Origin: Neiella litorisoli
Lineage (GTDB): Bacteria; Pseudomonadota; Gammaproteobacteria; Enterobacterales; Neiellaceae
NCBI RefSeq assembly: GCF_014773395.1
Contig: NZ_JACXAF010000008.1
Coordinates: 124,001 to 188,000, forward strand
Reading direction: 5' to 3'
DNA: 64,000 nt
Positions 9,330 to 59,650 of the stretch are shown piece by piece. The notes under the pieces were generated by a model, which was not told the DNA's origin, did no database searches, and was given only the letters and a program-made list of their open reading frames with translations. The stretch's first letter is position 1; the number at the start of each line of letters is the position of its first letter. Made by a program: the position numbers and the translations under genes.

Positions 9330-9520
9330 CAATATGTTACAACGTATCGCATTTCATTTTTAATTCACTAAACCACCGCAAAACCGCAACCAATTCGTCA
9401 CATTTTCACCTTAGCTTCTGTGCTGCTTATTGCTCTTGAGCAATTCCGATCCCCGATGTGCAGTCATATCCAACCGAATCACTGCTGTCGGTTTCAAACA
9501 TAACCAGGAAAGGTGAAACC

Positions 9521-11104
9521 ATGTTGAAACAAAGCACTGCATTGTGCAGCTTGCTTGTGGCCGGTTTATGTACATCAGCGACCGCTGCGGTACTGCCAGA
9601 GTCACAATCTGCGAGCAGCTGGTATCAAGATGCCCAAACGAAAATTGCCGCCAAACTAGCTCGTAGCCAAACCACCAAAGCGAAAAACGTCATCCTCTTC
9701 GTTGGCGACGGCATGGGCGTCTCGACCCTAACGGCAGCGCGCATTTTGGAAGGTCAAATGGCCGGTAATTCCGGCGAAGAAGGCTACCTGAGCTTCGAAA
9801 AATTTCCCTACTCAGCGCTCGTTAAAACCTACAACGTGGACGCTCAAACACCCGACTCTGCCGGCACCATGACTGCCATGATGTCAGGTGCCAAGACCGA
9901 TGTTGGCGTCATCGGCGTTGATGAGGATATCGTGCGCGGTGATTGCAGCACAGTCGCTGGCAATGAAATGATCACCGCCCTTGAGTTGGCCGAACTAAAA
10001 GGCTTGTCGACCGGTATTGTTTCGACTGCCCGCATCACCCACGCTACGCCAGCAGCAACCTACGCCAAGTCTGCCGACCGTAACTGGGAAGATGTTTCTG
10101 ACATGCCAGAAGACGCAGTCACTGGCGGCTGTGTGGACATCGCCAGTCAGCTAATCGGCTTCGAAGCGATGATGGAACAACGCTTTGCTGGTGCTGATGT
10201 CGATGGCATCGAAGTAGCCATGGGTGGCGGACGCCGCCATTTTCTGCCCAAAGACGCCAGCTTCAACAGCGCCGATGCAGTCAGCTCGGTCGAAGGTGAT
10301 CGCACCGATGGTCGTGATCTGACTGCCGAATGGCAGCAAAGCTATCCCAACGGCAGCTATGTCATGGATCAAGCTGGTTTTGATGCCATCGACACCGAAA
10401 GCGTTGAGCGTGTGCTGGGCTTATTCAATGAATCTCACATGCAATATGAAGCCGATCGTCAAAATGACGTAGCTGGTGAGCCATCGTTAAGTGAAATGAC
10501 CACCACCGCCATCAATGTGCTTGATAACAACGACAAAGGCTTTTTCCTGATGGTTGAATCGGGCCGTATTGACCACGGTCACCACGCTGGCAGTGCTTAC
10601 AATGCCCTGACTGACACCATTGAGTTTGCCAAAGCGGTACAAGCCGCTGTTGATGCCACCAGCGCTGAAGACACCCTGATCTTAGTCACCGCCGACCACG
10701 GCCACGTCTTTACCATTGCCGGCTACCCGAAACGCGGTAACCCAATCCTTGGCAAAGTGGTTGGTGTCGGTTCCGAGCAAGCCGCGACTGCAGCCGATGG
10801 CATGCCGTACACCACGCTGGGTTACACCAACGGCCGTGGTTTCCGCGATCTTGGTAACGAAACCGATGCCGATGCGACATACGGTCTCGACAACGCCAAT
10901 GGCCGCCAAGACTTAACCAGTGTTGATACCACCAGCTCAGGCTATCACCAAGAAGCGGTCATCCCACTGAGTTCTGAAACTCACTCCGGTGAAGACATCA
11001 GCTTGCACGCGATGGGCCCAGGTGCTCACTTGGCGCAAGGCACCATCGAGCAAAACATCGTATTCCACCTCATCGAGAATGCTCTCGACTTGGTAGCAGA
11101 GTAA
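9521..11104 (+). CDS. Secreted alkaline phosphatase (first of tandem pair)
   Basis: Phosphomonoesterase of the alkaline phosphatase superfamily (PhoA-like), 527 aa. A signal peptide (residues 1-23, ending ATAA) predicts periplasmic or extracellular location. Metal and catalytic motifs: VGDGMG (Asp63), PDSAGTMTAMMSG with the nucleophile Ser113, ITHATPAATY, SGRIDHGHHAG, VTADHGHVFT and the late metal histidine in SSETHSGED. The ATG at 9521 has AGGAAAGGTG upstream; a longer frame from 9458 precedes the signal peptide and is not likely. The next gene is a paralog with the same catalytic motifs, 12 bases downstream. The promoter region 9330-9520 showed no convincing PhoB box. Confidence 0.93.
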   Translation: MLKQSTALCSLLVAGLCTSATAAVLPESQSASSWYQDAQTKIAAKLARSQTTKAKNVILFVGDGMGVSTLTAARILEGQMAGNSGEEGYLSFEKFPYSALVKTYNVDAQTPDSAGTMTAMMSGAKTDVGVIGVDEDIVRGDCSTVAGNEMITALELAELKGLSTGIVSTARITHATPAATYAKSADRNWEDVSDMPEDAVTGGCVDIASQLIGFEAMMEQRFAGADVDGIEVAMGGGRRHFLPKDASFNSADAVSSVEGDRTDGRDLTAEWQQSYPNGSYVMDQAGFDAIDTESVERVLGLFNESHMQYEADRQNDVAGEPSLSEMTTTAINVLDNNDKGFFLMVESGRIDHGHHAGSAYNALTDTIEFAKAVQAAVDATSAEDTLILVTADHGHVFTIAGYPKRGNPILGKVVGVGSEQAATAADGMPYTTLGYTNGRGFRDLGNETDADATYGLDNANGRQDLTSVDTTSSGYHQEAVIPLSSETHSGEDISLHAMGPGAHLAQGTIEQNIVFHLIENALDLVAE

Positions 11105-11116
11105 GGAAGGATCCCA

Positions 11117-13024
11117 ATGAACAAGTTAATTTTAAGTATCGCGGTTGCCTCTGCTCTGGCCTTAACCGGTTGTGATGGTGACGATGGTAAAGATGGCGTT
11201 AATGGCACCAATGGTGTGGACGGCGCGCCAGGCCAAGACGGCACACCAGGCTCCGACGGTCTTGACTCGCTGATCAATTCAATCGAATTAGCGGCGGGCC
11301 ATGAGGTGTGTCTCGGTGGCGGTGTTCAGTTCGACACCGGCTTGGACGACAATGCCAACGGCACCCTCGAAGCAGCCGAAATAGATGACACCAGTTACGC
11401 CTGTTTGCCTTACGACCCGGTCTCTGAAGCCGTGGTGACAGTAGAAACCTTAAACAATCCGTGGTTTCAACAAGGTCAGCAATACATCGAACAAGCTTTA
11501 GCAACACCGTATGACGCAGCCCCAACAGCGACGCCTCGTGCGGCCAGCACCGCTTATGTCGCACCAACGACCAGCCGCAAAGCAAAGAATGTCATCCTGT
11601 TTGTCGGTGACGGCATGGGTATTTCAACGGTCACTGCTGCCCGAATTCTGGAAGGTCAGATGAACGGCGGCCTTGGTGAAGAAAACGTACTGAGCTTTGG
11701 TAGCATGCCATTTGCCGGCTTAGCCAAAACCTACAACGTCGATGCTCAGACGCCTGATTCTGCCGGTACCATGACGGCGATGATGTCTGGTGTTAAAACC
11801 GACGTTGGCGTGATTGGTGTCGACGAAGACATTGTTCGTGGTGATTGCTCAACCGTTGCAGGCAATGAACTGGTCACCGCGCTTGAGCTAGCTGAAATAG
11901 CGGGCAAATCGACCGGCGTAATTTCGACCGCACGGATCACCCACGCCACCCCAGCGGCAACTTATGCGAAATCTGCCGATCGTAACTGGGAAGATGTATC
12001 TGATATGCCAGCTGAAGCGGTTGCTGCCGGTTGTGAAGACATTGCCTCTCAGTTGGTCAACTTTGAAGCCAACCTCGAAGCGCGCTTTGCTGGGCTCGAT
12101 GTCGATGGCATTGAAGTGGTGATGGGTGGTGGACGTCGCCACTTCCTGCCCAAAGATGCCAGCTACAACAGCCCTGATGCCGTCAGCTCAACCGAAGGCG
12201 ATCGCACCGATGGCCGTGATTTGACTGCCGAATGGCAAGCAAGTTACCCGCAAGGCACTTACGTTTACGACAAAATGGGCTTTGATGCGATTAACACCGC
12301 AACAACCTCCAAGTTGTTTGGTCTGTTCAACGAATCACACATGCAATACGAAGCTGATCGTAAAAATGATGTAGCCGGTGAGCCGTCATTGCGTGACATG
12401 ACCACCAAAGCCATCGAAGTGCTCGATAACAACGAAGAAGGCTTCTTCCTGATGGTTGAGTCCGGCCGTATCGACCATGGTCACCATGCCGGTAATGCCT
12501 ACACCGCATTGACTGACACCATTGAATTTGCCGAAGCGGTGAAAGCTGCAATGGCAATGACTAATGATGAAGAGACCCTGATCATCGTCACCGCCGACCA
12601 CAGCCACGTGTTTACCATTGCCGGTTATCCAAAACGTGGTAACCCAATCTTGGGCAAAGTCGTTGGCGTTGGCTCTGATACGCCAGCTGAAGCGGCCGAT
12701 GGTATGCCATACACCACATTGGGTTACACCAATGGCCGTGGCTTTATGAACCTTGGTGACGAAACCAATGCCGATGCTGGTTACGGTGTTGATATCAACG
12801 CAGGCCGGATGGATCTGAGCGATGTTGACACCACCACCCCAGGCTATCACCAAGAAGCCTTGGTACCAATGAGCTCCGAAACTCACGCCGGTGAAGATGT
12901 CGGTATCTACGCCAGTGGTCCAGGCGCGTCTTTGGTCACAGGCACCAACGAGCAAAGCATCATCTTCCACATCATGGATTATGCCGCTGAGCTGACAACC
13001 ATGGCCGATCAGGTTGTCGATTAA
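11117..13024 (+). CDS. Alkaline phosphatase lipoprotein with collagen-like linker
   Basis: Second tandem phosphatase, 635 aa, longer than its neighbour by an N-terminal extension. The signal peptide ends in a lipobox (LTGC, Cys19), so it is predicted to be lipid-anchored. Residues 21-48 form ten collagen-like Gly-X-Y triplets (for example GKDGVNGTNGVDG), then a roughly 100-residue linker with two cysteines. The phosphatase domain repeats the paralog's motifs: VGDGMGISTVTAARILEGQM, PDSAGTMTAMMSGVK with the nucleophilic serine, ESGRIDHGHHAG, VTADHSHVFT and SSETHAGED. The ribosome site is AAGGAAGG. It is probably cotranscribed with the upstream paralog. The residue after the lipid-carrying Cys is Asp, which in enterobacteria signals inner-membrane retention. 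Confidence 0.93.
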   Translation: MNKLILSIAVASALALTGCDGDDGKDGVNGTNGVDGAPGQDGTPGSDGLDSLINSIELAAGHEVCLGGGVQFDTGLDDNANGTLEAAEIDDTSYACLPYDPVSEAVVTVETLNNPWFQQGQQYIEQALATPYDAAPTATPRAASTAYVAPTTSRKAKNVILFVGDGMGISTVTAARILEGQMNGGLGEENVLSFGSMPFAGLAKTYNVDAQTPDSAGTMTAMMSGVKTDVGVIGVDEDIVRGDCSTVAGNELVTALELAEIAGKSTGVISTARITHATPAATYAKSADRNWEDVSDMPAEAVAAGCEDIASQLVNFEANLEARFAGLDVDGIEVVMGGGRRHFLPKDASYNSPDAVSSTEGDRTDGRDLTAEWQASYPQGTYVYDKMGFDAINTATTSKLFGLFNESHMQYEADRKNDVAGEPSLRDMTTKAIEVLDNNEEGFFLMVESGRIDHGHHAGNAYTALTDTIEFAEAVKAAMAMTNDEETLIIVTADHSHVFTIAGYPKRGNPILGKVVGVGSDTPAEAADGMPYTTLGYTNGRGFMNLGDETNADAGYGVDINAGRMDLSDVDTTTPGYHQEALVPMSSETHAGEDVGIYASGPGASLVTGTNEQSIIFHIMDYAAELTTMADQVVD

Positions 13025-13128: not shown

Positions 13129-13926
13129 ATGAACTCTCGTTACATTCCTTCCTTCATTATCAGCGCTGCGTGTGCCGCCAGCACCCTCATGATTGGCGCC
13201 ACCGCACTTTTGTTCAGCACCTCGGTTAACGCCAGTGCAAATGTCGCGGCTCACTCATGCCCACTCAACAAGCAGCGTTTAAGTGCTGATTACACCCTAA
13301 CCAGAACTTGGGACATCGGCCGTTCGCAAACTAAACAGCTAACCCTTTGGCGCAATGCTAATGAGGTCGCTTTACAATACCCGCAACAAGCGATCACCGA
13401 GATCTGGACCCGCGGCAAAGATGGCCGTAGCCGCCCTGTGCGATATTTTGACGATTACCAGCGTGGCATCGAGTACTTTCCCAACGAAGTCAAAGGCAGT
13501 GCCACTGCGCAAGTTTGGCAAAGTAAATATCAACTAATTGATGATGACTTTCGTCAACAAATGACGCTGGTTAGTGAAGCGGGCCAAGGCTGCCTGCGCA
13601 CCGAAACCTATGAGCTAAAACAGCAAGGCAAACGCTATCGCCTAGTCTGGCAACCTGCATCACAGCTGGTTATTCAGTACCAAGAGCAAGCCATGAGTCA
13701 GTTGTTTACCATTGAGTTGCAGCAGACATCGCAAGATAGTGGCCAAATTGATCAATTTTTTGCGTCGCGTCAGGCTTATCAAACCACTGATTATGCCGAT
13801 GTCGGTGACAACGAAAGCGATCCGTTCTTTTTGAAAATGATGAGCTTGGGCTTTGTTCAACACGGCGCATCCGGTTTTTACAACGCCGATGGCAGCAAGC
13901 TAGGTGGCAACAGCCACGTTCATTAG
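13129..13926 (+). CDS. Unknown secreted protein downstream of the phosphatases
   Basis: Predicted 265-aa exported protein that I do not recognise. The N-terminus MNSRYIPSFIISAACAAS followed by a hydrophobic stretch and VNASANV resembles a long signal peptide. The mature part begins with CPLNKQRLSADYTLTR and contains a possible beta-rich region (IEYFPNEVKG, KQLTLWRNANEV) and two cysteines that could pair (SCPLN and GCLRTE). The C-terminus ends with NADGSKLGGNSHVH. The ATG at 13129 has GGAG upstream; a longer frame from 13087 would overlap the hairpin. It follows the two phosphatase genes in the same direction by about 100 bases, so a shared role in phosphate scavenging is possible but unproven. 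Confidence 0.75.
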   Translation: MNSRYIPSFIISAACAASTLMIGATALLFSTSVNASANVAAHSCPLNKQRLSADYTLTRTWDIGRSQTKQLTLWRNANEVALQYPQQAITEIWTRGKDGRSRPVRYFDDYQRGIEYFPNEVKGSATAQVWQSKYQLIDDDFRQQMTLVSEAGQGCLRTETYELKQQGKRYRLVWQPASQLVIQYQEQAMSQLFTIELQQTSQDSGQIDQFFASRQAYQTTDYADVGDNESDPFFLKMMSLGFVQHGASGFYNADGSKLGGNSHVH

Positions 13927-23988: not shown

Positions 23989-26943
23989 TTAGAACTTGTA
24001 GCTAGCACCAATGGCGTAGCGAGCAGAGCCCTGAGTCGCACTCAGCATTTGCTCTTTGTAGCGCCCATGAATGCGTTGCTCTTCTTCCAGTACGTTCAAA
24101 CCTTCGAAGAAAATACTCAACTGGTCATTCACTTCATAGCTCACGCTCACGTCCAACTGACCGTAAGACTCTGTGAACTGAGGTGCTGGACCACCCGCTT
24201 CCGCTTGACCTGTTCCTGACAAGAAATCATCACGCCAGTTGTAAGCCGCTCGAGCTTGCAAGCCATCTTTGTCATAGAACACAGAGAAGTTTGCAGAGTC
24301 ACTCAAACCAGGCAGAGCGAACTGTTCAGTGGTGGTTTCAACATCGTACTCGGTGTCACCGCTGACGAAGGTCGCATTCGCTTGGAAACCGAAACCAGTG
24401 TCCCAGAACCAGTGCTGCCATGCGATTTCCCAACCGTGAGTGCGGAGATCTTCAACGTTATTCGGGCGATTAACCAACCAAGTCACGACTGGATCATCGT
24501 CACTTTGACGGATTACCGTGTTGTCACCCACTTGCTCACCATAGCCATTGTCAATCAACCACTGGAACACGTTTTCATCAGTTGCTGGCACACCATCGGC
24601 CGCCAATTGTGAGCGAGCCAACTCAGCGCGAGGACCAACATACGGGTCGCGTAGACCGTCGTACTGCACTTCGCTGATGGTGGTTTGCAGGAAGTTTTCT
24701 ACGTCTTTGTTAAACCAACCTGCAGACACATAACTTGCTTCGTCGTAGTAGTACTCAAGCGACAAATCAATGTTATCGGAGCTGAATGGCTCCAGCCCTG
24801 GGTTACCAGAGAAGCCAGTGCGCGAGCCAGGCTTAGGCTGATTAGTTAACGAGTTGGTTGCCTTCATTTGACCCAGCGTTGGGCGAGTAATGGTTTTGCT
24901 CAAAGAAACACGGGCAATTAAATCGTCAACGATTTCCAGATTGATATCTAAGTTCGGTAAGAACTCGCTGTAATCACTGGTTTCGCGGGTGTAAGTCTGT
25001 TCTTCAGACTTCTGAGTGAACCACTCTTGGCCAGAAATCCACTGGAGTTCTTCGGCAACTGTTTGCAAGCTGCTGGCAGTCACATCAGTTTTTTCGTAAC
25101 GGCCACCGAGCAGCACATTCAATGGCATTTCCATCAGTTCAGTTTCAACACTCAGCTGAATGTAGGCACTGGTGGTTTCTTCTTGCACCTTATGGTCGTC
25201 TTGCCAAGGGGCAGCAACATATTGCACGCCAAACAAGTCCTCAGCTTTCGCCATCGAGGTTTTTTGATTGTAGGTGTAGTAGTAAGGAATACGGATATCT
25301 TTACCACCACCAGAGAAGTCACCTAAGAAGTCTTTGCCAAGCAGCACCAACTCCATGTCTTCTTCCCAAATACCTAGGTTAGCAGGGTCGTACCAACCGG
25401 CACTTTGCTGGTCATAGCTACCCCAAGCGCGAGTTTCCATATCGGTATAAGCCATACCAAATTCGATGGTATCGACAATACCCGGAATATCGATGAAGTA
25501 ACTGCCGTCGAACTGATACTGAGTTAAGTCAGTTTCATTCTTCGCAGCCACCATACCCGCGAACAGTGAGTTGTAGTGCTCAGGTAGCAGGTTGACATCA
25601 GTACCAGGCACAGGATTGGTGAACACCGCGTCGAGCGTTGGGATCTCAGTGCTTGACGCATCATAGGTCTTGGTGTCGAAGTTGAAACCGCCTTTAATGA
25701 AGAAAGTACGGTTAGTGCCGTTGCTCAGCGCTCCATTAGACTCTGCAGAAGAATCATGGGCATCAAAGCTGAGCGCCAAATCATCATTGACCTGCCAATC
25801 GATATTCAGGCCCAGCGATTTGTTCTCGTTCTCTGATGCTTCCATGCTCATGGTACCGGAGTAGTCGCCACCAAATTCAGTGACCACATCAAAGGTGCCG
25901 TTCTCATCAACATGAGCGGTGTCAACACTGTTATAGCCTTGGAACCAAAGGCCGAAGCTATCAACATAGCTTTCGTCTTCCAGCTTGGAGTAGGTGTAAT
26001 CAGTGGTGATCACCAAGTTATCCATTGGCGCATATTGGAACACGACTTGAGCGTTATAACGCTCACGTTCAACATCGGTTGAGCTAAAGCCCATGTTACG
26101 GGCATAGAAGTAGTTGCCATGAGGGTTTTGGTTGTCATCAACCAACTCACCTGAGGCCGTTTTGTTTTCGAGCCAAGTAGCAAATGCGGAATCTTCAGTA
26201 TTGAACTGGCGCCAGCCATCGATACCTGCTTTGGTGATGGTGCTGTCGCGTTTTTTGTAAGAAGCAGAAACACCGATACCAATAGTGTCGTCCATGAAGG
26301 TGTTGCTGAAGATGCCGGAAACTTCTGGTGTGTAATCATCGCCGCTACCATCAACGCTATCGTCAACGCTGGTATCGTGATGCACTTTACCGGTTACCGT
26401 GGCAACCATGCCATCATTGTCAAATGGGCGGGCGGTGCGGATATCAATGGTGGCACCAATACCGCCTGAAGGCAGATCGGCTCGACCAGTTTTGGAAACA
26501 GCTACTTCAGACACGCTTTCCGAGGCGATGTTGGCAAAGTCGAATGAACGAGTCGACTCACTGGCAGTGCCAGATGTCGGCATGGTACGGCCGTTGAACA
26601 AGACTAAGTTGAAGTCAGGGCCAAAACCACGAACAGTCACCTTGCTACCTTCACCGTTAACACGGTCAATGGACACGCCAGTGATACGCTGTAGCGATTC
26701 TGCCAGGTTAGTATCTGGGAACTTACCAATATCCTCTGCCGAAATAGCATCAACTACACCAGCTGAGGTACGCTTTAAATCCATCGCTTTGGCTTGCGAG
26801 CTGCGAATACCGGTAACCTGAATTACTTCGGTATCGTCCGCAGGAATTTCATCGGCGGCTTGAGCCGGAATCAATGCCGCAGCACCGAGCACCAAAGACA
26901 AACTGGCTGCCAGTTTTGTTTTAGTGAACATTGTGTGTTTCAT
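23989..26943 (-). CDS. TonB-dependent receptor (carbohydrate-type) 1
   Basis: Outer-membrane, TonB-energised transporter of 984 aa. Signal peptide (MKHTMFTKTKLAASLSLVLG..PAQAA), TonB box region DDTEVIQVTGIRSS, a plug domain with FPDTNLAESLQRITGVSIDR and the signature VTVRGFGPDFNLVLFNGR, and a long beta-barrel ending RYAIGASYKF with the terminal aromatic residue needed for assembly. The plug signature and length are those of the Xanthomonas/Caulobacter (CUT-type) group used for oligosaccharide uptake; the substrate cannot be told. GGAG lies upstream of the ATG. LacI-type palindromes sit about 115 and 450 bases upstream. Closely related to the receptor at 27569. Confidence 0.95.
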   Translation of the reverse strand: MKHTMFTKTKLAASLSLVLGAAALIPAQAADEIPADDTEVIQVTGIRSSQAKAMDLKRTSAGVVDAISAEDIGKFPDTNLAESLQRITGVSIDRVNGEGSKVTVRGFGPDFNLVLFNGRTMPTSGTASESTRSFDFANIASESVSEVAVSKTGRADLPSGGIGATIDIRTARPFDNDGMVATVTGKVHHDTSVDDSVDGSGDDYTPEVSGIFSNTFMDDTIGIGVSASYKKRDSTITKAGIDGWRQFNTEDSAFATWLENKTASGELVDDNQNPHGNYFYARNMGFSSTDVERERYNAQVVFQYAPMDNLVITTDYTYSKLEDESYVDSFGLWFQGYNSVDTAHVDENGTFDVVTEFGGDYSGTMSMEASENENKSLGLNIDWQVNDDLALSFDAHDSSAESNGALSNGTNRTFFIKGGFNFDTKTYDASSTEIPTLDAVFTNPVPGTDVNLLPEHYNSLFAGMVAAKNETDLTQYQFDGSYFIDIPGIVDTIEFGMAYTDMETRAWGSYDQQSAGWYDPANLGIWEEDMELVLLGKDFLGDFSGGGKDIRIPYYYTYNQKTSMAKAEDLFGVQYVAAPWQDDHKVQEETTSAYIQLSVETELMEMPLNVLLGGRYEKTDVTASSLQTVAEELQWISGQEWFTQKSEEQTYTRETSDYSEFLPNLDINLEIVDDLIARVSLSKTITRPTLGQMKATNSLTNQPKPGSRTGFSGNPGLEPFSSDNIDLSLEYYYDEASYVSAGWFNKDVENFLQTTISEVQYDGLRDPYVGPRAELARSQLAADGVPATDENVFQWLIDNGYGEQVGDNTVIRQSDDDPVVTWLVNRPNNVEDLRTHGWEIAWQHWFWDTGFGFQANATFVSGDTEYDVETTTEQFALPGLSDSANFSVFYDKDGLQARAAYNWRDDFLSGTGQAEAGGPAPQFTESYGQLDVSVSYEVNDQLSIFFEGLNVLEEEQRIHGRYKEQMLSATQGSARYAIGASYKF

Positions 26944-27052
26944 GAACTGTCTCCGTATAGACTTAATTATTCACGAGTAGCGCAATCACTCATGATTTAT
27001 AACGGGTGAAAAACCATACTGCCCATGTGAACGCATTTACTTAGCGTGTAAC

Positions 27053-27071
27053 CGCTTACGTAAGCGCTTTC
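27053..27071. promoter_or_regulatory. LacI-type operator-like palindrome, proximal to receptor 1
   Basis: Perfect 14-base palindrome CGCTTACGTAAGCG (27053-27066) overlapping GTAAGCGCTTTC (27060-27071), an AAGCGCTT core of the type bound by LacI-family repressors. It is about 115 bases upstream of the receptor start. Confidence 0.65.
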
Positions 27072-27388
27072 ATGATGAATTAAGTTTAATCCGCTACCCG
27101 CGAACAAATCAATGTTGTGTCCCTTTCCCAGATCACAAAAACAACATGTGCAACACAAGATACCAATTGCGCCATTACAACCAGCCACAATTAATCATTA
27201 ATGCTTTAACCAAAATTAAATAAGCAACTGTTAAATAACAATTAAAATTCATACCCCAATCGATAAACAAACGATTCCGAGGATACATTTCAGATCTGCT
27301 GGAGACCGCCAAATGGCCCAAATAGAGCATAAGCTCCGATTTTTTATGTCATAAATGAGAGCTGGATCGACAAACCAAACAACCCAAT

Positions 27389-27400
27389 GTAAGCGCTTAC
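27389..27400. promoter_or_regulatory. LacI-type operator-like palindrome, distal to receptor 1
   Basis: Perfect 12-base palindrome GTAAGCGCTTAC with the central CG typical of LacI-family operators, 329 bases from the proximal site. Confidence 0.65.
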
Positions 27401-27517
27401 CCAATTTTTCATTACACGTTCAAGTGTAAGACCTAACATAAGCTTTAAGTGAGTTGGCATCACAATGACCAACTCCGCCTTGCGACAAGTGTTATCACAG
27501 TGACAAACAGCAACGAC

Positions 27518-27543
27518 AAAAAAGCCGCTGTTTACAGCGGCTT
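27518..27543 (-). terminator. Terminator of TonB-dependent receptor 2
   Basis: Stem AAGCCGCTG/CAGCGGCTT (27522-27530 and 27535-27543) with loop TTTA and a T-run on the minus strand. It is almost the same hairpin as that of receptor 1, with a compensatory base-pair change at the foot. Confidence 0.9.
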
Positions 27544-27568
27544 CAAACAGTCCAATTAGCCTTCTTGG

Positions 27569-30499
27569 TTAGAAGGTGTAACGGGCGCCCAATGCATAAC
27601 GAGCACTGTTTTCTTGTGCACGCAACATTTGCTCTTTGTAGCGACCATGGATACGCATTTCTTCTTCAAAGATGTTAATACCTTCGGCAAACACGGTCAG
27701 TTCCTCAGTCACATCGTAACTGATGCTGAAGTCCCACTGGCCATAAGATTCAGTGAACTGAGGCGCTGGACCGCCAGATTCTGCTTGGCCAGTGGCCGAC
27801 AGGAAGTCATCACGCCAGTTGTAGGCGATTCGCGCTTGCAAACCGTCTTTATCATAGAAGGCAGCAAAGTTAGCCGAATCACTCAAACCAGGCAGTGCGA
27901 ACTGCTCATCGGTGCGCTCGACATCGTACTCAGTATCACCAGTCACAAAGGTGGCATTAGCAGAAACACCAAATCCGGTATCCCAGAACCAATGCTGAGC
28001 AGCGATTTCCCAACCATGAATGTTTAAGTCTTCAACGTTGTTAGGCTGACTGATCTGCCAAGTGATCACCGGATCATTGGCACTTTGAGGGACTCGGCCA
28101 TCAGCGTCGCCATAGCCATTGTCGACTAGCCAACCATGAACGGCTTCATCACTCGGTACACCACCGGCTGCGGTGATTTCAGCACGAGCAAGCTCCGCTG
28201 CTGGACCAACATATGGGTCGCGCAAATGATCGAACTCTTGTTCAACAATGGTGTTCATCAGGAAGTTCTCTACTTCTTTATTGAACCAACCTGCTGATAC
28301 GTAGCTTGCTTCACCATAATAGTATTCAACCGAGAAATCGAGGTTGTCTGAGCTATAAGGTTTCAAAGCTGGGTTACCGGCAAAGCCTGAACGACCACCG
28401 ACTTTTGGAATGGCGGTTAATGACGTCGTTGCACGCATTTGTCCCAGCGTTGAGCGCGTAATGGTGTTGCTGTAGCTAAAGCGAACCTTCAGATCTTCAA
28501 TGACTTCTAAGTCGATATCGAGACTTGGCAAGAACTCTTTATAGTCATGGGTTTCATGGCTAAAGGTCGAGGTGTCAGCAAACTCGGTAACCCACTCGGT
28601 TGGATTTAGCCAAACCACGCGCTCGGCATCTTGCTGCAAGCTGCTGGCGGTCACATCAGTTTGCTCATAGCGAATACCAGCCAGTACATTAAGCGGCATG
28701 TCATTGAATTCACTTTCGAAGTTGAACTGCAAGTAAGCTGACTTGGTTTCTTCTTCAATGTGATGATCATCAGTAAACGGAATGGCTTTGTATTCGACAT
28801 CGTACAACTCTTCAGCACGCGCCATTGCTGCGTCTTGATCGTAGCTGTAGTAATAAGGGATCAGCATGTCACTGCCGCCACCGGAAAAGTCACTGAGGAA
28901 GCCTCCGCCGAGACTTTCATACGACATATAATCCGCCCACTGCCCTTTGTTGCCATACCAGCCGGCGCTAATCGGACCGGTGTAACTAGCACCTGCGTGG
29001 GTTTCCATTTTCAGATAAGACAAACCAAAGTCGATGGCGCCAAGAGAATCAGAGCTATCGTTAATCCAAGTACCATCAAATTGCACTTGGGTGACATCGG
29101 TTTTGTTTTTACCAGCGCGAACACCAGCAAATAAAGTGGCGTAATCTTCAGGCTGCAGATGCGGCTCACCGGCAGGATTCAGATCGACGTAGTTGGCGCC
29201 AAGCAGCGGAATATCCGTGTTACGGGCATCATATGTTTTGTCTGCAACATTCAATGCGCCAGCAATAAAGAACTTATTATCGGCACTATCACCTAAGGTA
29301 CCCTCGGCGGTTGCTTCGGAATCGTGGGCATCCAAACGCAATTCAAGCAAATCATTGACCTGCCAAGCGATGTTTAAACCCAGCGATTTGTTTTCGTTCT
29401 CTGAAGCGTTTTGTTGCATGGTGCCAGAGTAGTCACCGCCAACTTCGGTGGCGTATACGAAGGTACCATTTTTATCAACTTCAGCTGCGGTCAGGTTACC
29501 AAGGCCCGAGAACCATAAACCAAAGGTATCGGCTTCAGACTCATCTTCGAGTTTCGAGTAGGTGTAATCAACCGTGACTTCCATGGTGTCGATGGGCGCA
29601 TACTGCAATACCAACTGCGCATTGGTACGCTCACGCTCGGTATTGGTGATGCCAAAGCCAATATTACGCGCATAGAAGTAGTTGCCGTATGGGTTGCTGT
29701 TCATGTCATTCAAATCAACAGTCCCCGCTTCGGCGCGTGCTTTCAGATCGATCACATCCTGTGAATCGTCATTAAACTGGCGCCAACCATCGATGGTTGC
29801 GGCATTGGTGGTACTGTCACGTTTGACATAAGAGCCGGAGAAACCAATACCAAAGGTTCCATCCATAAAGGTGTTGCTGATTAAACCGGAGATCTCAGGG
29901 GTATAGTCATCGCCATCTTCAACACCGGTATCATGGTGAACTTTCGCCCCTACTGTTGCGACCAAACCATCATTGTCGAATGGCCGAGCCGTTTGGATAT
30001 TGATGGTGGCGCCAATACCACCTGAAGCCACGTCCGCTTTACCAGTTTTGTACACTTCGACGCCGCTAACGCTGTCAGAGGATAAGTTGGCAAATTCAAA
30101 TGAACGAGTTGACTCACCTTCAACCTGTGCCGTTGGCATCACTCGGTTGTTGAGCAATACCAAGTTAAAGTCTGGACCAAAACCACGAACGGTTACCTTA
30201 CTACCTTCGCCATTGACCCGATCAATCGAGACACCAGTGATGCGCTGAAGTGATTCGGCTAAGTTGGTGTCAGGGAATTTACCAATGTCCTCGGCAGAGA
30301 TCGCATCTACGACACCTGCGGAGGTACGTTTCAGATCCATGGCTTTGGCCTGCGAGCTGCGAATACCGGTGACCTGAATGACTTCTGTATCATCAGCTGG
30401 TACTTCTTCGGCGGCCTGTGCTGAGAACAAGGTTGCTGCGCCAAGAACTAAAGAAAGGCTTGCCGCCAATTTAGTTTTAGCGAACTTTGTGTGTTTCAT
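27569..30499 (-). CDS. TonB-dependent receptor (carbohydrate-type) 2
   Basis: Paralog of the receptor at 23989, 976 aa from the start used here. Same signal peptide style (MKHTKFAKTKLAASLSLVLG), TonB box region DDTEVIQVTGIRSS, plug signature VTVRGFGPDFNLVLLNNR and C-terminus YALGARYTF. Plug and final strands are nearly identical between the two, while the middle barrel regions differ more, as expected if surface loops diverged for different ligands. The ATG at 30499 has GGAG six bases upstream and starts the signal peptide; an upstream ATG at 30640 would add 47 residues and overlap the operator. LacI-type sites lie about 130 and 460 bases upstream. Confidence 0.95.
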   Translation of the reverse strand: MKHTKFAKTKLAASLSLVLGAATLFSAQAAEEVPADDTEVIQVTGIRSSQAKAMDLKRTSAGVVDAISAEDIGKFPDTNLAESLQRITGVSIDRVNGEGSKVTVRGFGPDFNLVLLNNRVMPTAQVEGESTRSFEFANLSSDSVSGVEVYKTGKADVASGGIGATINIQTARPFDNDGLVATVGAKVHHDTGVEDGDDYTPEISGLISNTFMDGTFGIGFSGSYVKRDSTTNAATIDGWRQFNDDSQDVIDLKARAEAGTVDLNDMNSNPYGNYFYARNIGFGITNTERERTNAQLVLQYAPIDTMEVTVDYTYSKLEDESEADTFGLWFSGLGNLTAAEVDKNGTFVYATEVGGDYSGTMQQNASENENKSLGLNIAWQVNDLLELRLDAHDSEATAEGTLGDSADNKFFIAGALNVADKTYDARNTDIPLLGANYVDLNPAGEPHLQPEDYATLFAGVRAGKNKTDVTQVQFDGTWINDSSDSLGAIDFGLSYLKMETHAGASYTGPISAGWYGNKGQWADYMSYESLGGGFLSDFSGGGSDMLIPYYYSYDQDAAMARAEELYDVEYKAIPFTDDHHIEEETKSAYLQFNFESEFNDMPLNVLAGIRYEQTDVTASSLQQDAERVVWLNPTEWVTEFADTSTFSHETHDYKEFLPSLDIDLEVIEDLKVRFSYSNTITRSTLGQMRATTSLTAIPKVGGRSGFAGNPALKPYSSDNLDFSVEYYYGEASYVSAGWFNKEVENFLMNTIVEQEFDHLRDPYVGPAAELARAEITAAGGVPSDEAVHGWLVDNGYGDADGRVPQSANDPVITWQISQPNNVEDLNIHGWEIAAQHWFWDTGFGVSANATFVTGDTEYDVERTDEQFALPGLSDSANFAAFYDKDGLQARIAYNWRDDFLSATGQAESGGPAPQFTESYGQWDFSISYDVTEELTVFAEGINIFEEEMRIHGRYKEQMLRAQENSARYALGARYTF

Positions 30500-30626
30500 G
30501 AAGAGCTCCATTTTATAATTTTTGATGCACCACGATTCCGTGGTTGCAGTTTTTTGTGCGGATAAAAATCCTGCTTCCCCCGCTAACGCTTTTCTTTTGA
30601 ATGCCAACAACACATTCAACCACCAA

Positions 30627-30638
30627 GTAAGCGCTTTC
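30627..30638. promoter_or_regulatory. LacI-type operator-like site, proximal to receptor 2
   Basis: GTAAGCGCTTTC, identical to the proximal half of the receptor 1 site and at a similar distance (128 bases) from the receptor start. Confidence 0.6.
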
Positions 30639-30958
30639 ACGGCAAAGCAAGTCTACTGCCGAAAACTTGCGTAAAGCAACGCACAAAATCGCCTTCAGAT
30701 CACACAAACAACAAAGTTTAAGCAAATATTTAACGAGACAAAAAAATATAATCAGGATTATCAAAAACTATCTAAGAAACACACAACAAGCCCAAATAAA
30801 AATAAATATACACTTAAAACAGATAGTTGAAATAAACTAAAAAATTAGTTGATTTAATATCATGTAAGTAAGCAACTACATCAAGCGAGTTAACAAAGAC
30901 ATCTTGCCTATTTTTCGAACGATTCGTTGTTTACCAACGAAAACCTAAGAAAATACAT

Positions 30959-51889: not shown

Positions 51890-52765
51890 TTACTTTTTAG
51901 CAGCTTCGATTTGAGCAGCTACTTCAGCAGCGAAGTCTTCTTCTTTCTTCTCGATACCTTCACCAACTTCCAAACGGATGAAGTTAGCAACAGTCGCGCC
52001 TTTAGACTTGATCAATTGCTCAACTGATTGAGAAGGATCTTTAACAAATGGCTGACCAGTCAGGCTCACTTCGTGAGTGAACTTCTTCATCCGGCCGACA
52101 ACCATTTTCTCAGCGATTTCAGCTGGCTTGCCAGAGTTAACCGCGATGTCGATTTGGATCGCTTTTTCTTTCTCTACAACGTCAGCTGGAACGTCGGCTG
52201 GCGTAACGAATTCTGGCTTGCTTGCCGCAACGTGCATTGCCAAGTCTTTCGCCAACTCTTCGTCGCCGCCATTGATGCCAACTAGAACACCAATTTTGCC
52301 GCCGTGAATGTAAGCACCAATGGTCTCACCTTCGTTGAAAGCAACAACACGACGTACAGTCATGTTTTCACCGATTTTAGCAACCAAGTTCGCACGGGTA
52401 ACTTCAACAGTTTCACCGTCGATTTCAGCAGCATTCAATGCATCGATGTCAGAAATCTTTTGTTCGAAAGCAACGTCAGCAACTTTGTTTGCGAAAGCTA
52501 GGAAGCTCTCATCACGGGCAACAAAGTCAGTCTCACAGTTCAGCTCGACGATAGTCGCGTAGCCTGCGCCAGTGCGTGCAATCACAACACCTTCAGCAGC
52601 AACACGGCCAGCTTTCTTCGCAGCTTTCGCTTGGCCTGACTTACGCATGTTTTCAATGGCTTGTTCAATGTCGCCATTCGTTTCAGTCAGGGCTTTTTTA
52701 CAATCCATCATGCCCGCGCCAGTACGTTCGCGGAGCTCTTTTACCAGGGCAGCAGTAATTGCCAT
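51890..52765 (-). CDS. tsf: Elongation factor Ts
   Basis: Nucleotide exchange factor for EF-Tu. N-terminal UBA-like domain ([19 protein letters not shown]), the exchange core with [10 protein letters not shown] and the C-terminal coiled-coil region (GFVNFN-free; [18 protein letters not shown]). 291 aa, the normal length. Follows rpsB in the universal order. Confidence 0.98.
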
Positions 52766-54799: not shown

Positions 54800-57433
54800 A
54801 TGCCGCAGTTTGAAGTCGATTTCAGCCAATACCCAAAAACCGAGCGAGTGATGACGTTTCGGGCCCTTCATGAACAATGTCTTGAATGGTTAAGCTCGCA
54901 ATATCACCGAGGCACTTCGGTGATTCATTTGGTCAAAGCCAGAAGTCGCTTCATCGACCAGCTATTAACGCAACTCTGGTGGCAACTCGATCTGCACGAA
55001 GTGAGCGATTTGTCACTGGTCGCTGTCGGCGGTTATGGTCGCGGCGAATTGCATCCCCATTCTGATGTTGATTTATTAATTCTCAGCCAACGCCCCATCA
55101 GCGCCGATACCGAAAGTAAGCTCAGCCAGTTCATTACCAACCTGTGGGACATTCGCTTAGAAGTCGGCCACAGCGTGCGCTCAGTGAAAGAATGTTTATC
55201 GCTGGGCAAAGAAGACATCACCATCGCCACCAACTTGATGGAATCTCGCTTGATCTCAGGTGATGAAGTCCCTTATCAGTTGCTCGAAAAAGAAGTGAAG
55301 TCGCAGAAATTCTGGCCTTCCGACACCTTTTTCCAAGCCAAAATGGCCGAACAGGTGGCGCGTCATGAGCAATACCACGACACCGCATACAACCTTGAGC
55401 CCAACGTCAAAGCCAACCCCGGCGGCTTGCGAGACATTCAAAATATCGGTTGGGTGGTGAAGAATCACTTTGGTGCCGACGAATTATCGCAACTGGTTGA
55501 ACATGGCTTTCTAACCGTTGATGAGCATGACGAATTAGAACAGTGCCAGAAGTTTCTGTGGCAAGTTCGCTTTGTCTTGCACACCGTCACTAAGCGCGCC
55601 GAAGACCGCTTACTGTTCGATTACCAAGCGGAAGTGGCTCGCGGCTTAGGTTATTGTGACGAAGGCAATTTGGCCGTCGAGAAAATGATGAAACGGCTGT
55701 ATCAAACCATTCGCCGTGTCATTGAACTTAACCAAATGTTGCTGCAGCTATTTGCCGACGCCTTCTTGGATACCTACTACTCAGCGGAAGTGACCGAGCT
55801 GGACAACGACTTTTTGATGCGTGGCAACAATATTGGTTTGCGTCACCCCAATGTCTTCGATACCCCCGCAAACTTTATTCGTCTACTGTTGCACATTGCC
55901 GACCACCGAAATGTTACTGGCGTCTCGGCCCATGCCATTCGCCGCTTACGGGTTAGTCGCCGGCAATTGCGCGGCTATCTGCAAGATGTCTCCCAGTGCC
56001 GAGAGTTGTTTGTTAGGCTAATGCGCCATCCGCGCGGCCCCGGTCGGCCAATTGCCATCATGCATCGGCACGGCATTCTCGCCGCTTATATGCCGGCGTG
56101 GGAAAACATCGTCGGCCAAATGCAATTCGATTTGTTCCATGCCTTTACCGTCGATGAGCACACCTATCGGGTGACCAAAAACCTCTACCGCTTAACTCGC
56201 TCTGAATTTGCCGAGCAATTCCCGCATGTGCGCGGGGTGATGGCGCAAATTGAAGAGCCTGATTTGTTGTTCCTTGCTGCCCTGTTCCACGATATCGCCA
56301 AAGGTCGTGGCGGCGATCACTCCGAGCTTGGCGCGGTCGATGCCGTTGAATTCTGTAAACATCATGGTTACAGCAAGGAACAAGGCGAGTTAGTCGCTTG
56401 GCTGGTTGAGAAGCACTTGCTGATGTCAGTGACTGCGCAAAAGCGCGATATTCAAGATCCACAAGTGGTCTCAACATTTGCCCAGAAAATTGCCTCGCCG
56501 GAGCGCCTCAAATACCTCTACTGTCTGACTATTGCCGACATTCGAGCAACTAACGACAACTTGTGGAATGGCTGGAAAGGCGCCCTGCTGCGAGAACTTT
56601 ACAAGTCAACCTACAATGCTTTGGTCGAAGGCGTTGAACAAAATCTCGACATCGCCAGCCATATCGAATTTACTCAAAGTAAAGCGTTGGAGCTACTCGA
56701 TCAGAGCATTGAGCGCGAGCAAATCGATCTGCTCTGGCAACGCTTTAAACCAGAGTATTTTGTTCGCCATACGCCTGAGCAAGTCGCTTGGCATACCATG
56801 CGGATCATTGCTCACGGAGATAACAGCGAGCCACTATTGGCGTTATCTGAAATCGCTAACCGTGACAGCTCAGAGCTATTTATTTATACCCGCGACAAGG
56901 CCAATTTATTCCTCCATACGGTGAACGTGCTGGATCGCAAAAATCTTGACGTGTACGACGCCCAGATCCTCAATACCAAAGATGGTATGACCATGGATAC
57001 CTTCGTGGTCCTGGAGCGCGATGGCAAGCCGTTGGCAGGCCAAGCGCGGATTGACGAAGTGACCACGGCCCTCGCCCAGAGTTTGAAGAACGACCAATCA
57101 GACAACGGCCCGGCACCAAAATTATCGCGTCAGCTGAAAAACTTTCATATTCAGCCCAAAGTTAAATTCATCCCGAGTGAAAAGCCGAATCGGACCATGC
57201 TGGAACTCGTTGCGCTGGATAGGCCAGGGCTACTGGCTGATGTGGCGACATTATTCCACGACATGGAGCTGAGCTTGCACTCGGCAAAAATTTCTACTGT
57301 GGGTGAGCGCGCGGAAGACTTTTTCAGCCTCTCAACCAAGCTCGGCGAAGCACTAGATGAGCAAACCAAAGAATTACTGCAATGCCGCTTGATGAAAGAG
57401 GCATCGCTACAGGACTCTGCGGTTTGTAGTTAA
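54800..57433 (+). CDS. glnD: Bifunctional uridylyltransferase/uridylyl-removing enzyme GlnD
   Basis: Nitrogen sensor that uridylylates and de-uridylylates PII proteins. 877 aa: nucleotidyltransferase domain (GGYGRGELHPHSDVDLLIL, metal Asp pair), HD phosphohydrolase domain (FHAFTVDEHTYRV, LFHDIAKGRGGDHSELGA) and two C-terminal ACT domains that bind glutamine (from about 700: FIYTRDKANLFLHTV; and MLELVALDRPGLLADVATLF). The 3' end runs into a three-fold 12-13-base repeat before dapD. Confidence 0.96.
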   Translation: MPQFEVDFSQYPKTERVMTFRALHEQCLEWLSSQYHRGTSVIHLVKARSRFIDQLLTQLWWQLDLHEVSDLSLVAVGGYGRGELHPHSDVDLLILSQRPISADTESKLSQFITNLWDIRLEVGHSVRSVKECLSLGKEDITIATNLMESRLISGDEVPYQLLEKEVKSQKFWPSDTFFQAKMAEQVARHEQYHDTAYNLEPNVKANPGGLRDIQNIGWVVKNHFGADELSQLVEHGFLTVDEHDELEQCQKFLWQVRFVLHTVTKRAEDRLLFDYQAEVARGLGYCDEGNLAVEKMMKRLYQTIRRVIELNQMLLQLFADAFLDTYYSAEVTELDNDFLMRGNNIGLRHPNVFDTPANFIRLLLHIADHRNVTGVSAHAIRRLRVSRRQLRGYLQDVSQCRELFVRLMRHPRGPGRPIAIMHRHGILAAYMPAWENIVGQMQFDLFHAFTVDEHTYRVTKNLYRLTRSEFAEQFPHVRGVMAQIEEPDLLFLAALFHDIAKGRGGDHSELGAVDAVEFCKHHGYSKEQGELVAWLVEKHLLMSVTAQKRDIQDPQVVSTFAQKIASPERLKYLYCLTIADIRATNDNLWNGWKGALLRELYKSTYNALVEGVEQNLDIASHIEFTQSKALELLDQSIEREQIDLLWQRFKPEYFVRHTPEQVAWHTMRIIAHGDNSEPLLALSEIANRDSSELFIYTRDKANLFLHTVNVLDRKNLDVYDAQILNTKDGMTMDTFVVLERDGKPLAGQARIDEVTTALAQSLKNDQSDNGPAPKLSRQLKNFHIQPKVKFIPSEKPNRTMLELVALDRPGLLADVATLFHDMELSLHSAKISTVGERAEDFFSLSTKLGEALDEQTKELLQCRLMKEASLQDSAVCS

Positions 57434-57459: not shown

Positions 57460-57471
57460 TAAGGAGGCATG

Positions 57472-58269
57472 ATGACCAATCTGCAAGTCATCATCGAAGC
57501 GGCATTTGAACGGCGCTCAGAATTGTCGCCGACCAGTGTCGACCAAAAGATCCGTGATGCCATCGAGCAGACCTTGACCATGCTGACCACTGGCCAATTG
57601 CGCGTTGCCGAAAAACTGGCCGGCGAGTGGGTGGTACATCAATGGCTGAAAAAAGCCATTCTGCTGTCGTTACAATTGGCAGACGATAGCGATCTTGCCC
57701 AACAATCTGCTGATGTGAACGACTGGCCGCCATTTCAATCACCACAGCAGCTGGCTGCACCAAACCAGCGCTTTGCTTGCCGCTCTGCTCACATCGCAGA
57801 GCAAGTCGCGCTGATGCCCTGTTACATTAGCCACGGCGCCTACGTTGACCAAGCCACACAAATTGGTGCTTGGGCGGCAATCGGCAGTTGTGCCCAGATC
57901 GGTAAACAAGTGCAACTTTGCGATGGCGTCAGCATTGGCAGCATGCTTGAGCCACTCTCTGCAAAACCCACCATTATCGAAGATGATTGCTATATCGGTG
58001 CTAGCTCGGTGATTGCCGATGGCGTTGTGATTGAGCAAGGCTCGATCATCGCAACAGGCGTAACCATTGGCCAAAGTACCCGCATCTACCATCGTGACAG
58101 CGGTGCGACTTATCATGGCCGGGTACCCGCGGGCTCTGTGGTGGTCGCAGGCAGCCTGCCCTATCAAGACGGCAAATATAGCTTGAACGCCGCTATTATC
58201 GTGCGCTCGGTAGATGCCAACACTCGCGCAACACTAGGCGTTGATGCCCTGCTCCGCGCCGCGCTGTAA
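57472..58269 (+). CDS. dapD: E. coli-type DapD homolog lacking catalytic acids
   Basis: Homolog of tetrahydrodipicolinate N-succinyltransferase of the E. coli type (lysine and diaminopimelate synthesis), 265 aa versus 274. N-terminal domain clearly conserved (NLQVIIEAAFERRSE, LRVAEKLAGEWVVHQWLKKA), beta-helix present (IGSCAQIGKQVQL, PTIIEDDCYIG), and C-terminal RVPAGSVVV with DGKYSL kept. Aligned to E. coli, Asp141 is Gly132 (IGAW instead of VDTW) and Glu189 is Val180 (GASSV instead of GARSE); these are the two acids known to be needed for catalysis. The central linker is about nine residues shorter. AAGGAGG precedes the second of two adjacent ATGs, which I use. Frame intact, so either a changed function or early decay. 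Confidence 0.85.
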   Translation: MTNLQVIIEAAFERRSELSPTSVDQKIRDAIEQTLTMLTTGQLRVAEKLAGEWVVHQWLKKAILLSLQLADDSDLAQQSADVNDWPPFQSPQQLAAPNQRFACRSAHIAEQVALMPCYISHGAYVDQATQIGAWAAIGSCAQIGKQVQLCDGVSIGSMLEPLSAKPTIIEDDCYIGASSVIADGVVIEQGSIIATGVTIGQSTRIYHRDSGATYHGRVPAGSVVVAGSLPYQDGKYSLNAAIIVRSVDANTRATLGVDALLRAAL

Positions 58270-58300
58270 AACCATATATGGCATAACGCCCGCATCAACA

Positions 58301-58332
58301 AAAAAAGCGCCTGCAAAACAAGGCGCTTTTTT
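58301..58332. terminator. Bidirectional terminator between the two DapD genes
   Basis: AAAAAAGCGCCT (58301-58312), an eight-base loop, then AGGCGCTTTTTT (58321-58332). The T- and A-runs on both sides suit termination from both directions, as expected between convergent genes. Confidence 0.92.
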
Positions 58333-58377
58333 CATCAAGCCCACCGCTGGGGCGAGCTTGTTTGATAACAAGGGTAA

Positions 58378-59292
58378 TTAATCGTTGGAATGCAATGCCG
58401 CGTTGAGGCCGCCCCAAGAGGTACCGTCAGTCGTTACCGCTTGCACTTCACCAGTCTGGCTATGACGGCGGAACAAGAGTTTCGATTGGCCCGATAGTTC
58501 GCGAGCAGAGACGATTGAACCATCTGGCAATTTAACTTTAGTGCCAGCAGTCAGGTACAGACCAGACTCAACGATACAGTCATCGCCAAGAGAAATACCC
58601 AAACCGGCGTTGGCGCCCAGTAGGTTGCGCTGACCCATCGAGATCACTTGCTTACCACCACCAGAAAGAGTACCCATAATCGATGCACCACCGCCGATAT
58701 CAGTATCTTCGGCAACGACAACACCGGCGCTAATGCGGCCTTCGACCATAGAGTTGCCCAGAGTACCAGCATTGAAGTTAACGAAACCTTCGTGCATCAC
58801 AGTGGTACCTGCAGCTAAGTGAGCGCCCAAGCGAACACGATCGGCATCGCCAATCCGCACGCCTTCTGGGATCACGTAATCGGTCATCCGAGGGAATTTA
58901 TCGATGGAGGTCACGTTGAATTGCAGCGCTTCTTCGGCAATCGCCTCACGCAAGTTTTCAACTTCACTTGGCAATACTGGACCTGCCGAAGTCCAAGCGA
59001 CATTGGTGAGCAAACCAAACACGCCATCGAGATTAATTTCGTGTGGACGGTAAGCACGCTCTGAGATCAGGTGCAGACGCAGGTAGGCTTCTTCTGCAGA
59101 TTGCGGCGCATCATCAACGGAAGCAATTTCCACCGTGACAAAATCACCTTTGATAATGCCAGCTTTGGCTGCTAAACAGTGACGTGCAATCTCTTTGTTG
59201 GATTTTGGGAACCACACATCTAAAGTTGCACCTGTCTTAGCATCGCTATAACGGTGTCCAATACGCTTAATTGTCATTACGCTATTTTTCAT
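58378..59292 (-). CDS. dapD: Tetrahydrodipicolinate N-succinyltransferase, second DapD family
   Basis: Succinyltransferase of the diaminopimelate pathway belonging to the other DapD family (Pseudomonas/actinobacterial-like), 304 aa. It shows INLDGVFGLLTNVAWTSAGPV, a beta-helix with RVRLGAHLAAGTTVMHEGFVNFNAGTLG in pieces, MVEGRISAGVVVAEDTDIGGGASIMGTLSGGGK in pieces and a C-terminal LLGANAGLGISLGDDC and LYLTAGTKV. All typical blocks are intact. It converges on the E. coli-type copy, with a shared terminator between. The start is the first ATG; an alternative is five codons later. It probably carries the DapD activity of the cell. Confidence 0.88.
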   Translation of the reverse strand: MKNSVMTIKRIGHRYSDAKTGATLDVWFPKSNKEIARHCLAAKAGIIKGDFVTVEIASVDDAPQSAEEAYLRLHLISERAYRPHEINLDGVFGLLTNVAWTSAGPVLPSEVENLREAIAEEALQFNVTSIDKFPRMTDYVIPEGVRIGDADRVRLGAHLAAGTTVMHEGFVNFNAGTLGNSMVEGRISAGVVVAEDTDIGGGASIMGTLSGGGKQVISMGQRNLLGANAGLGISLGDDCIVESGLYLTAGTKVKLPDGSIVSARELSGQSKLLFRRHSQTGEVQAVTTDGTSWGGLNAALHSND

Positions 59293-59650
59293 CCATCAGT
59301 TAAAAATTTAGCGCCGTAGTATAACTGCCAAAGAGGCAAGTTTTAATCGAAAGTTTTTGAAAACTGCTCGTATCAGTAACTTGACAGGCTATTCAGGCAT
59401 GGGTGGCGGCGACTCACCAATTTAAATCGGCCAGCGGCGGCTTGATGATTGAGCTGTAACGGTCGTTATTTAGCCAAAGTGTGCCACATGCATCATTGTA
59501 AATAACTACAGCGACTATCTTAAAACCTGTTGATCTTTGCTGTATGAATTTTGACGAACCCTTCGGGCTGCGTTTATTGCTGCAATAACACACAGCAAAG
59601 ATCAACAGGCTCTAGTTAGTGGTTATTTTTAGTCAGAAGAGGATTAACCA
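59293..59650. other. Intergenic region with palindromic element
   Basis: About 350 bases without a gene between dapD and the small DUF465 gene. It holds the element at 59527-59610; the rest is featureless AT-rich sequence. Confidence 0.6.
59527..59610. repeat. Palindromic element with 18-bp perfect inverted repeat
   Basis: Perfect 18-base inverted repeat CCTGTTGATCTTTGCTGT (59527-59544) and its complement (59593-59610) around a 48-base centre that contains a short GAACCCTTCGGG hairpin. It resembles a small MITE/REP-like element. The right end and flank (59603-59618) match 31142-31157 exactly in inverted orientation. Confidence 0.8.

Follow-up and report, generated by a model that had tools for sequence, protein, structure and literature searches.

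The window analysed here is a stretch of 64,000 nucleotides from Neiella litorisoli, whose genome (G000) consists of 46 contigs with 4.32 Mb and whose family is named Neiellaceae in PMC10408702. The genes map, glnD and dapD1 follow one another on the forward strand and are succeeded by dapD2 on the reverse strand. Both dapD open reading frames were found at the positions given in the earlier note, which had described dapD1 as an E. coli-type gene with an intact frame behind glnD. dapD1 occupies 57472..58269 (+) and encodes 265 residues, or 266 with the adjacent ATG at 57469 as the start, while the convergent dapD2 occupies 58378..59292 (-) and encodes a DapD of the actinobacterial/Pseudomonas type with 304 residues. 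The upstream neighbour glnD (54800..57433, +) marks the ancestral position of dapD; a full glnD was found at 70 of 79 canonical dapD loci and lies upstream on the same strand in all 70, and E. coli-type DapD shares this gene order with DapD1. Between the end of glnD and the start of dapD1 there are 35 or 38 bases, and a ribosome-binding site (AAGGAGG, 57461..57467, +) is read from the sequence inside this gap. AGGAG and GGAG are present at the equivalent place in G002 and in Neiella holothuriorum strain 126 (G001), respectively, and thus all three sampled Neiella species have a ribosome-binding site before dapD1.

The two genes were thought to have a terminator in common, and a stem-loop with a stem of 12 bp at 58301..58332 bears this out as a probable bidirectional terminator, since its folding energy is -17.0 kcal/mol on the forward strand (z -4.7) and -15.7 kcal/mol on the reverse strand (z -3.8). 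A consensus terminator scan found none, compared to a mean of 2.5 in shuffled sequences; the stem-loop was missed because its T run sits within the stem, where the scan does not count it. In N. holothuriorum an open reading frame of 707 residues (L054, 8043-10166), with a lipoprotein-like start and without a Pfam match, separates dapD1 from dapD2, and translation of its dapD2 begins with the Met at residue 6. A promoter scan marked a promoter-like stretch upstream of dapD2 (59300-59350) which contains TATACT and the motif TTTCGATTAAAACTT. This stretch is kept in G001 and G002, and also at another locus in a genome of the sister genus (G004).

DapD1 has the N-terminal helical domain, the hexapeptide coils and the C-terminal domain of E. 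coli-type DapD (TIGR00965/NF008808). It matches the E. coli protein 3bxy with a phmmer E-value of 7.1e-84, and the domains PF14805 (THDPS_N_2, 86.3 bits) and PF00132 (hexapeptide repeats, 48.1 bits) are both over their cut-offs. The score of 245.2 bits passes the NF008808 cut-off of 204, and the score of 291.2 bits against TIGR00965 lies under the cut-off of 375.4. Identity to 20 canonical members is 51-55%, while those members are 73-82% identical to one of themselves. In a protein tree of 38 rows the Neiella DapD1 proteins form a single clade with 100% bootstrap and a long stem (0.81). Their placement among the canonical DapDs is unsupported (48-62%), and the ancestry of DapD1 therefore rests on gene order. 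AlphaFold2 gave poor models for DapD1 (mean pLDDT 61.2) and for a canonical DapD modelled from the same rows as a control (60.4), so the low confidence in the DapD1 linker is uninformative. All 24 Foldseek matches of the DapD1 model at E<=0.001 are DapD structures, with TM-scores near 0.3 for this poor model. The 45 matching records in a plasmid collection and the 6 in a phage collection are every one under 60% identity to DapD1, and viral contigs held no match.

For the comparison of residues, E. coli DapD from record CP054241.1 (L212) was used as the position reference and D141, E189, R104 and R112 were counted in it. The proposed substitutions withstood realignment, as Gly132 of DapD1 (codon GGT, 57865..57867, +) falls on Asp141 and Val180 (codon GTG, 58009..58011, +) on Glu189 in all three MAFFT modes. 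All three Neiella DapD1 proteins carry this Gly/Val pair. None of 106 canonical homologues, which come from two overlapping and hence not independent samplings, shares it, and all 106 have D/E at these sites (103 of 103 aligned, with L097, L102 and L030 read in addition). The occurrence of the pair in all three species led to the rejection of a chance origin.

The roles of the two E. coli residues as amine-side acids were reportedly established by Beaman et al. in 1998 and 2002, and in the earlier note both were described as needed for handling of the substrate amine. A further DapD-like class, represented by L177 (4936-5685, -), L178 (4868-5617, -), L179 (1753-2508, +), L201 and L202, resembles DapD1 in having Ile or Val in place of Glu189 in all five members read. 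In contrast to DapD1, all five keep D141, and R104 and R112 are present in the two members aligned for these sites (L177 and L179). The three members compared are 36-38% identical to DapD1. Since this class keeps D141 without Glu189, and since members of the DapD2 family carry no acid at this position, Glu189 is an unsafe mark of inactivity. Unlike dapD1, the L177 gene lies in a biosynthetic-looking cluster which by Pfam contains an amino-acid kinase (aspartokinase-like), a dihydrodipicolinate synthase, a PLP decarboxylase and a desuccinylase-type (AstE/AspA) gene, and for those other members whose flanks were read far enough the surroundings look similar on inspection. The class is present as a second copy in two genomes (G022 and G046) and as the sole strong DapD1-type match in three (G034, G379 and G098). 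A precedent, by description, for a DapD relative in another pathway is TabB of the tabtoxin cluster. TabB sits in a toxin gene cluster, whereas by eye no such genes lie beside dapD1.

The two DapD types had been called unrelated subfamilies. This is too strong, because hhalign joins the canonical DapD1-type and DapD2 profiles with a probability of 94% over the hexapeptide part. In the structures of Pseudomonas aeruginosa DapD (PaDapD; PDB 3R5A-D), as described in PMC3281039, the amine of the substrate is contacted, and perhaps deprotonated, by Glu221, the far carboxylate is bound by two arginines which are held by Asp168, and succinate is contacted by Arg223, Ser241, Glu221 and Gly238. The E. 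coli binding mode is called very similar there. The profile alignment sets the E. coli-type MVD141TW on MVE184GR of DapD2, and D141 thereby on Glu184, which corresponds to PaDapD Glu221. No acidic counterpart of Glu189 is found in the DapD2 family in this alignment, which extends along the canonical profile as far as residue 215 and so leaves the CoA contacts of PaDapD beyond transfer. The canonical RVVPPAxVR segment, with R104 and R112, falls on GVRIGDADRVR of DapD2. By homology, Arg104 and Arg112 of canonical DapD would bind the far carboxylate of the substrate. We infer this assignment rather than read it directly, because at the offset which suits seven other residues the PaDapD residues printed in PMC3281039 as Arg181 and Arg193 do not fall on arginines. 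Those closest by would be 183 and 191 (R146 and R154 of DapD2), numbers absent from the paper.

As read from the alignments, the losses in DapD1 are wider than the two acids, and the Arg104/Arg112 segment is degraded too. In canonical DapD this segment reads DKVP...RVVPPAxVRxG, while its place in DapD1 is taken by a degenerate linker (residues 73-104; 57688..57783, +). The position of Arg112 is held by Cys, Cys and a gap in the three Neiella proteins. That of Arg104 is a gap in all three in one alignment, and other alignments show one doubtful Arg in G000. The length of the linker varies among the three species, and it looks unconstrained. Among conserved positions on the acyl side, S159, G160 and G163 are lost. 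Taken from sequence, the loss of Asp141 together with the arginine segment is the stronger evidence against activity of DapD1, and that of Glu189 the weaker mark.

The pattern of change is uneven along the protein. Canonical-invariant sites, defined by a conservation of at least 97% across 103 canonical DapDs, number 146; the three Neiella proteins all retain 77 of these and all lack 30, and the other 39 are mixed. The sites kept in all three amount to 0 of 12 in the linker, 13 of 40 in the first coils, 27 of 38 in the later coils, 19 of 31 in the C-domain and 18 of 25 in the N-domain. An identical new residue is present in all three at seven sites (V63I, G114S, D141G, F183Y, E189V, E192D and Y224H); Tyr174, Asp183 and His215 of DapD1 are among these new residues. 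These seven common residues, together with the site pattern, are consistent with changes on the stem of the genus and constraint thereafter.

The protein encoded on the opposite strand was confirmed as a full DapD of the Pseudomonas/actinobacterial type. Every one of the seven active-site residues to which a position could be assigned is kept: D131, N172, E184, R186, A189, G201 and S204 of DapD2 correspond, at an offset of 37, to Asp168, Asn209, Glu221, Arg223, Ala226, Gly238 and Ser241 of PaDapD. It differs from DapD1 in these retained residues and in its N-terminal domain, and by homology it would catalyse the same pathway step. With 412.7 bits against TIGR03535 (cut-off 441.5) and 342.6 bits against TIGR03536 (cut-off 518.45), DapD2 passes neither model and lies nearer to the actinobacterial TIGR03535; by these scores it is a distinct subgroup, a member of neither NCBIfam equivalog. 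We call it DapD because of its homology, its residues and its being the sole strong DapD-type match in the sister genus (G004). DapE is above cut-off in all seven genomes of the family, which makes it probable that these genomes use the succinylase route; in the sister genus DapD2 alone would serve it.

The earlier note had proposed to look for the same Gly/Val pair and the same two genes in related genomes, and all three sampled Neiella genomes have the pair together with both dapD genes in convergent arrangement. A Neiella DapD1 profile run against 394 genomes of the order gave its three highest scores in Neiella (491-502 bits), and the next match had 354 bits; this distribution rests on scores, residues having been read in the aligned set only. 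DapD1-type matches at E<=1e-30 occur in at least 274 of the 394 genomes and strong DapD2 matches in 105. Among the matches listed, the three Neiella genomes are the only ones of the 394 with both types, in a co-occurrence table compiled by hand from two match lists that do not show the residues of each match. The sister genus has a GlnD 77% identical and a DapD2 96% identical to those of the window, with dapD2 located away from glnD. For DapD1 there is nothing in that genome beyond a weak match at 5.1e-5, and tblastn gave no credible dapD1 trace downstream of its glnD. As this genus has lost the gene, the function of dapD1 is dispensable in close kin. Two other genomes of the family (G005 and G006) have a canonical D/E DapD after glnD and are without DapD2, and a third (G003; 88% complete, uninformative) is without a match for DapD1, DapD2 or glnD. 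The idea of an in-place replacement in the earlier note stands only in part, since the second DapD type can act alone, as in the sister genus, but dapD2 there lies away from glnD.

The history of dapD2 may involve transfer. DapD2 of the window is 96% identical to that of the sister genus and 97% to that of N. holothuriorum (third-position differences 0.465 and 0.448), although GlnD identity over the same comparison drops from 90% with N. holothuriorum to 77% with the sister genus. Because the copy in the sister genus is about equally close despite this drop and is located elsewhere, transfer of dapD2 between the genera, instead of common inheritance, is possible. Among 369 genomes sampled from the class, one that lies outside the order (G584; L207, 6503-7402) has a DapD2 89% identical to that of the window without a strong DapD1 match, and horizontal transfer is probable there. 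Its dapD2 lies one glyoxalase-type gene away from a glnD-like open reading frame, and a dapE-like open reading frame is also near. Another genome outside the order (G631) combines a DapD2 that is 68% identical with a DapD1 that is intact and has D/E. The two genomes suggest that DapD2 probably moves between lineages, and the pair in G631 shows that coexistence alone does not force remodelling.

In view of this last genome, of the DapD-like class without Glu189 and of the passed NF008808 cut-off, one may ask if DapD1 continues to work as a THDP succinyltransferase, as a second copy with a shifted active site. We consider this very improbable, because Asp141, Arg104 and Arg112 are gone, places whose counterparts both DapD families keep, and because no other genome sampled from the order has both DapD types among the matches listed. 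DapD1 has in all likelihood ceased to be a THDP succinyltransferase.

dapD1 has diverged much faster than its neighbour. DapD1 identity between Neiella pairs is 54-64% (difference 36-47%) while GlnD identity is 90-96% (difference 4-10%), and in 91 canonical pairs with a GlnD identity of 88-97%, used as a control, DapD identity is at least 91%. A GY94 fit on the three Neiella species yielded an omega of 0.122 for dapD1, as against 0.021 for glnD, 0.011 for dapD2, 0.023 for acuI, 0.013 for map and 0.033 for pyrH, which is about 6 times the value of glnD and 11 times that of dapD2; dS is near saturation, about 1 to 2 per branch, and the omega of dapD1 is therefore approximate. For tsf, omega is 0.141, driven by the divergent copy in the window. 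Since the omega of dapD1 exceeds those of glnD, dapD2, acuI, map and pyrH, its constraint is weak and part of it is possibly left over. Both the acceleration of dapD1 and the constraint after the loss of the acids are real.

A slowly decaying relic, whose function ended with the arrival of DapD2 and whose open frames reflect a short time or residual constraint, would account for a dN which is 6 to 9 times as high as in glnD and 2 to 5 times as high as in acuI, as well as for the variable linker and the clean loss in the sister genus. It is less easily reconciled with the purifying selection that follows the common loss of the acids: omega=1 is rejected for the whole gene (2dlnL 179.1) and for the N-domain (32.0), the hexapeptide part (119.2) and the C-domain (35.0) separately. 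Differences between the species amount to 0.19-0.25 at codon position 2 as against 0.56-0.59 at position 3, and the frames are nevertheless open in all three, whereas a neutral simulation restricted to substitutions left 13 of 2000 frames open at 0.25 substitutions per site and 0 of 2000 at 0.5. The ribosome-binding sites are kept as well. We therefore regard a relic as improbable, and the view in the earlier note that the old copy is a conserved shell and not debris, for which it had pointed to dN/dS of the first copy, agrees with these results. DapD1 is likely to be kept for some function.

That function might be non-catalytic. DapD1 may have become a trimeric shell which binds CoA, succinyl-CoA or a partner and has a structural or regulatory role, perhaps linked to nitrogen status via glnD. 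Such a pseudoenzyme would agree with the purifying selection and with the pattern of change, in which the acid on the amine side, the segment for the distal carboxylate, S159, G160 and G163 are lost while much else is kept. However, besides glnD no surrounding open reading frame points to regulation, no partner or effector is known, and the kept later coils and C-domain suit catalysis equally. We find this rather unlikely, and the same applies to a non-catalytic CoA-binding or structural role in general; an enzyme with a new acceptor or donor comes closer to an even chance, though somewhat short of it.

The loss of the substrate site in a frame that is under selection suggests that DapD1 probably does something new, and the best overall explanation, to which we give a probability of roughly 60%, is displacement followed by repurposing. 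An actinobacterial/Pseudomonas-type DapD2 would have entered the common lineage of Neiella and its sister genus, presumably in a single arrival before the genera split, and would have taken over tetrahydrodipicolinate succinylation. The sister genus would then have dropped the ancestral DapD1 altogether. On the Neiella stem DapD1 would have lost its substrate site, that is Asp141, Glu189, the Arg104/Arg112 segment and first-coil positions beside the acyl pocket, and since then purifying selection would have kept the later hexapeptide coils, together with the greater part of the N-terminal domain and a large share of the C-terminal one. DapD1 would still bind a CoA thioester and may now acylate a different acceptor, probably smaller or less charged. 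It is thus tempting, at odds slightly below even, to picture the freed enzyme as a genus-specific CoA-dependent acyltransferase with a new acceptor and perhaps a new donor, still located behind glnD and still scoring as DapD.

Displacement of an enzyme followed by its repurposing is a known process, which is met here with clear controls. The locus is a natural experiment in which an essential enzyme of peptidoglycan and lysine synthesis appears to have been displaced, one sister lineage dropping the old gene and the other rebuilding it. It allows the fate of a freed essential enzyme to be tested, together with the question of which residues of DapD determine its reaction. For annotation the locus is a trap, as DapD1 passes the NF008808 DapD cut-off of NCBI though its substrate site appears to be gone. 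A literature search on second or paralogous dapD genes and on hexapeptide pseudoenzymes, with a coverage that lies mostly outside subscription journals, returned no report of such a case.

Further features of the window were noted. The EF-Ts encoded by tsf (51890-52765) is 70% identical to the copies in G001 and G002, although those two share 92% of their residues and the neighbours pyrH and rpsB show 95-99% identity; this looks like an allelic replacement in the source genome. A tandem pair of alkaline phosphatases (PF00245, 426.8 and 432.4 bits) is present at 9458-13024, and a tandem pair of similar TonB-dependent receptors (PF00593, PF07715) at 23989-30640. An open reading frame at 13922 of the N. 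holothuriorum locus (L054) has a start similar to those of the TonB-dependent receptors of the window.
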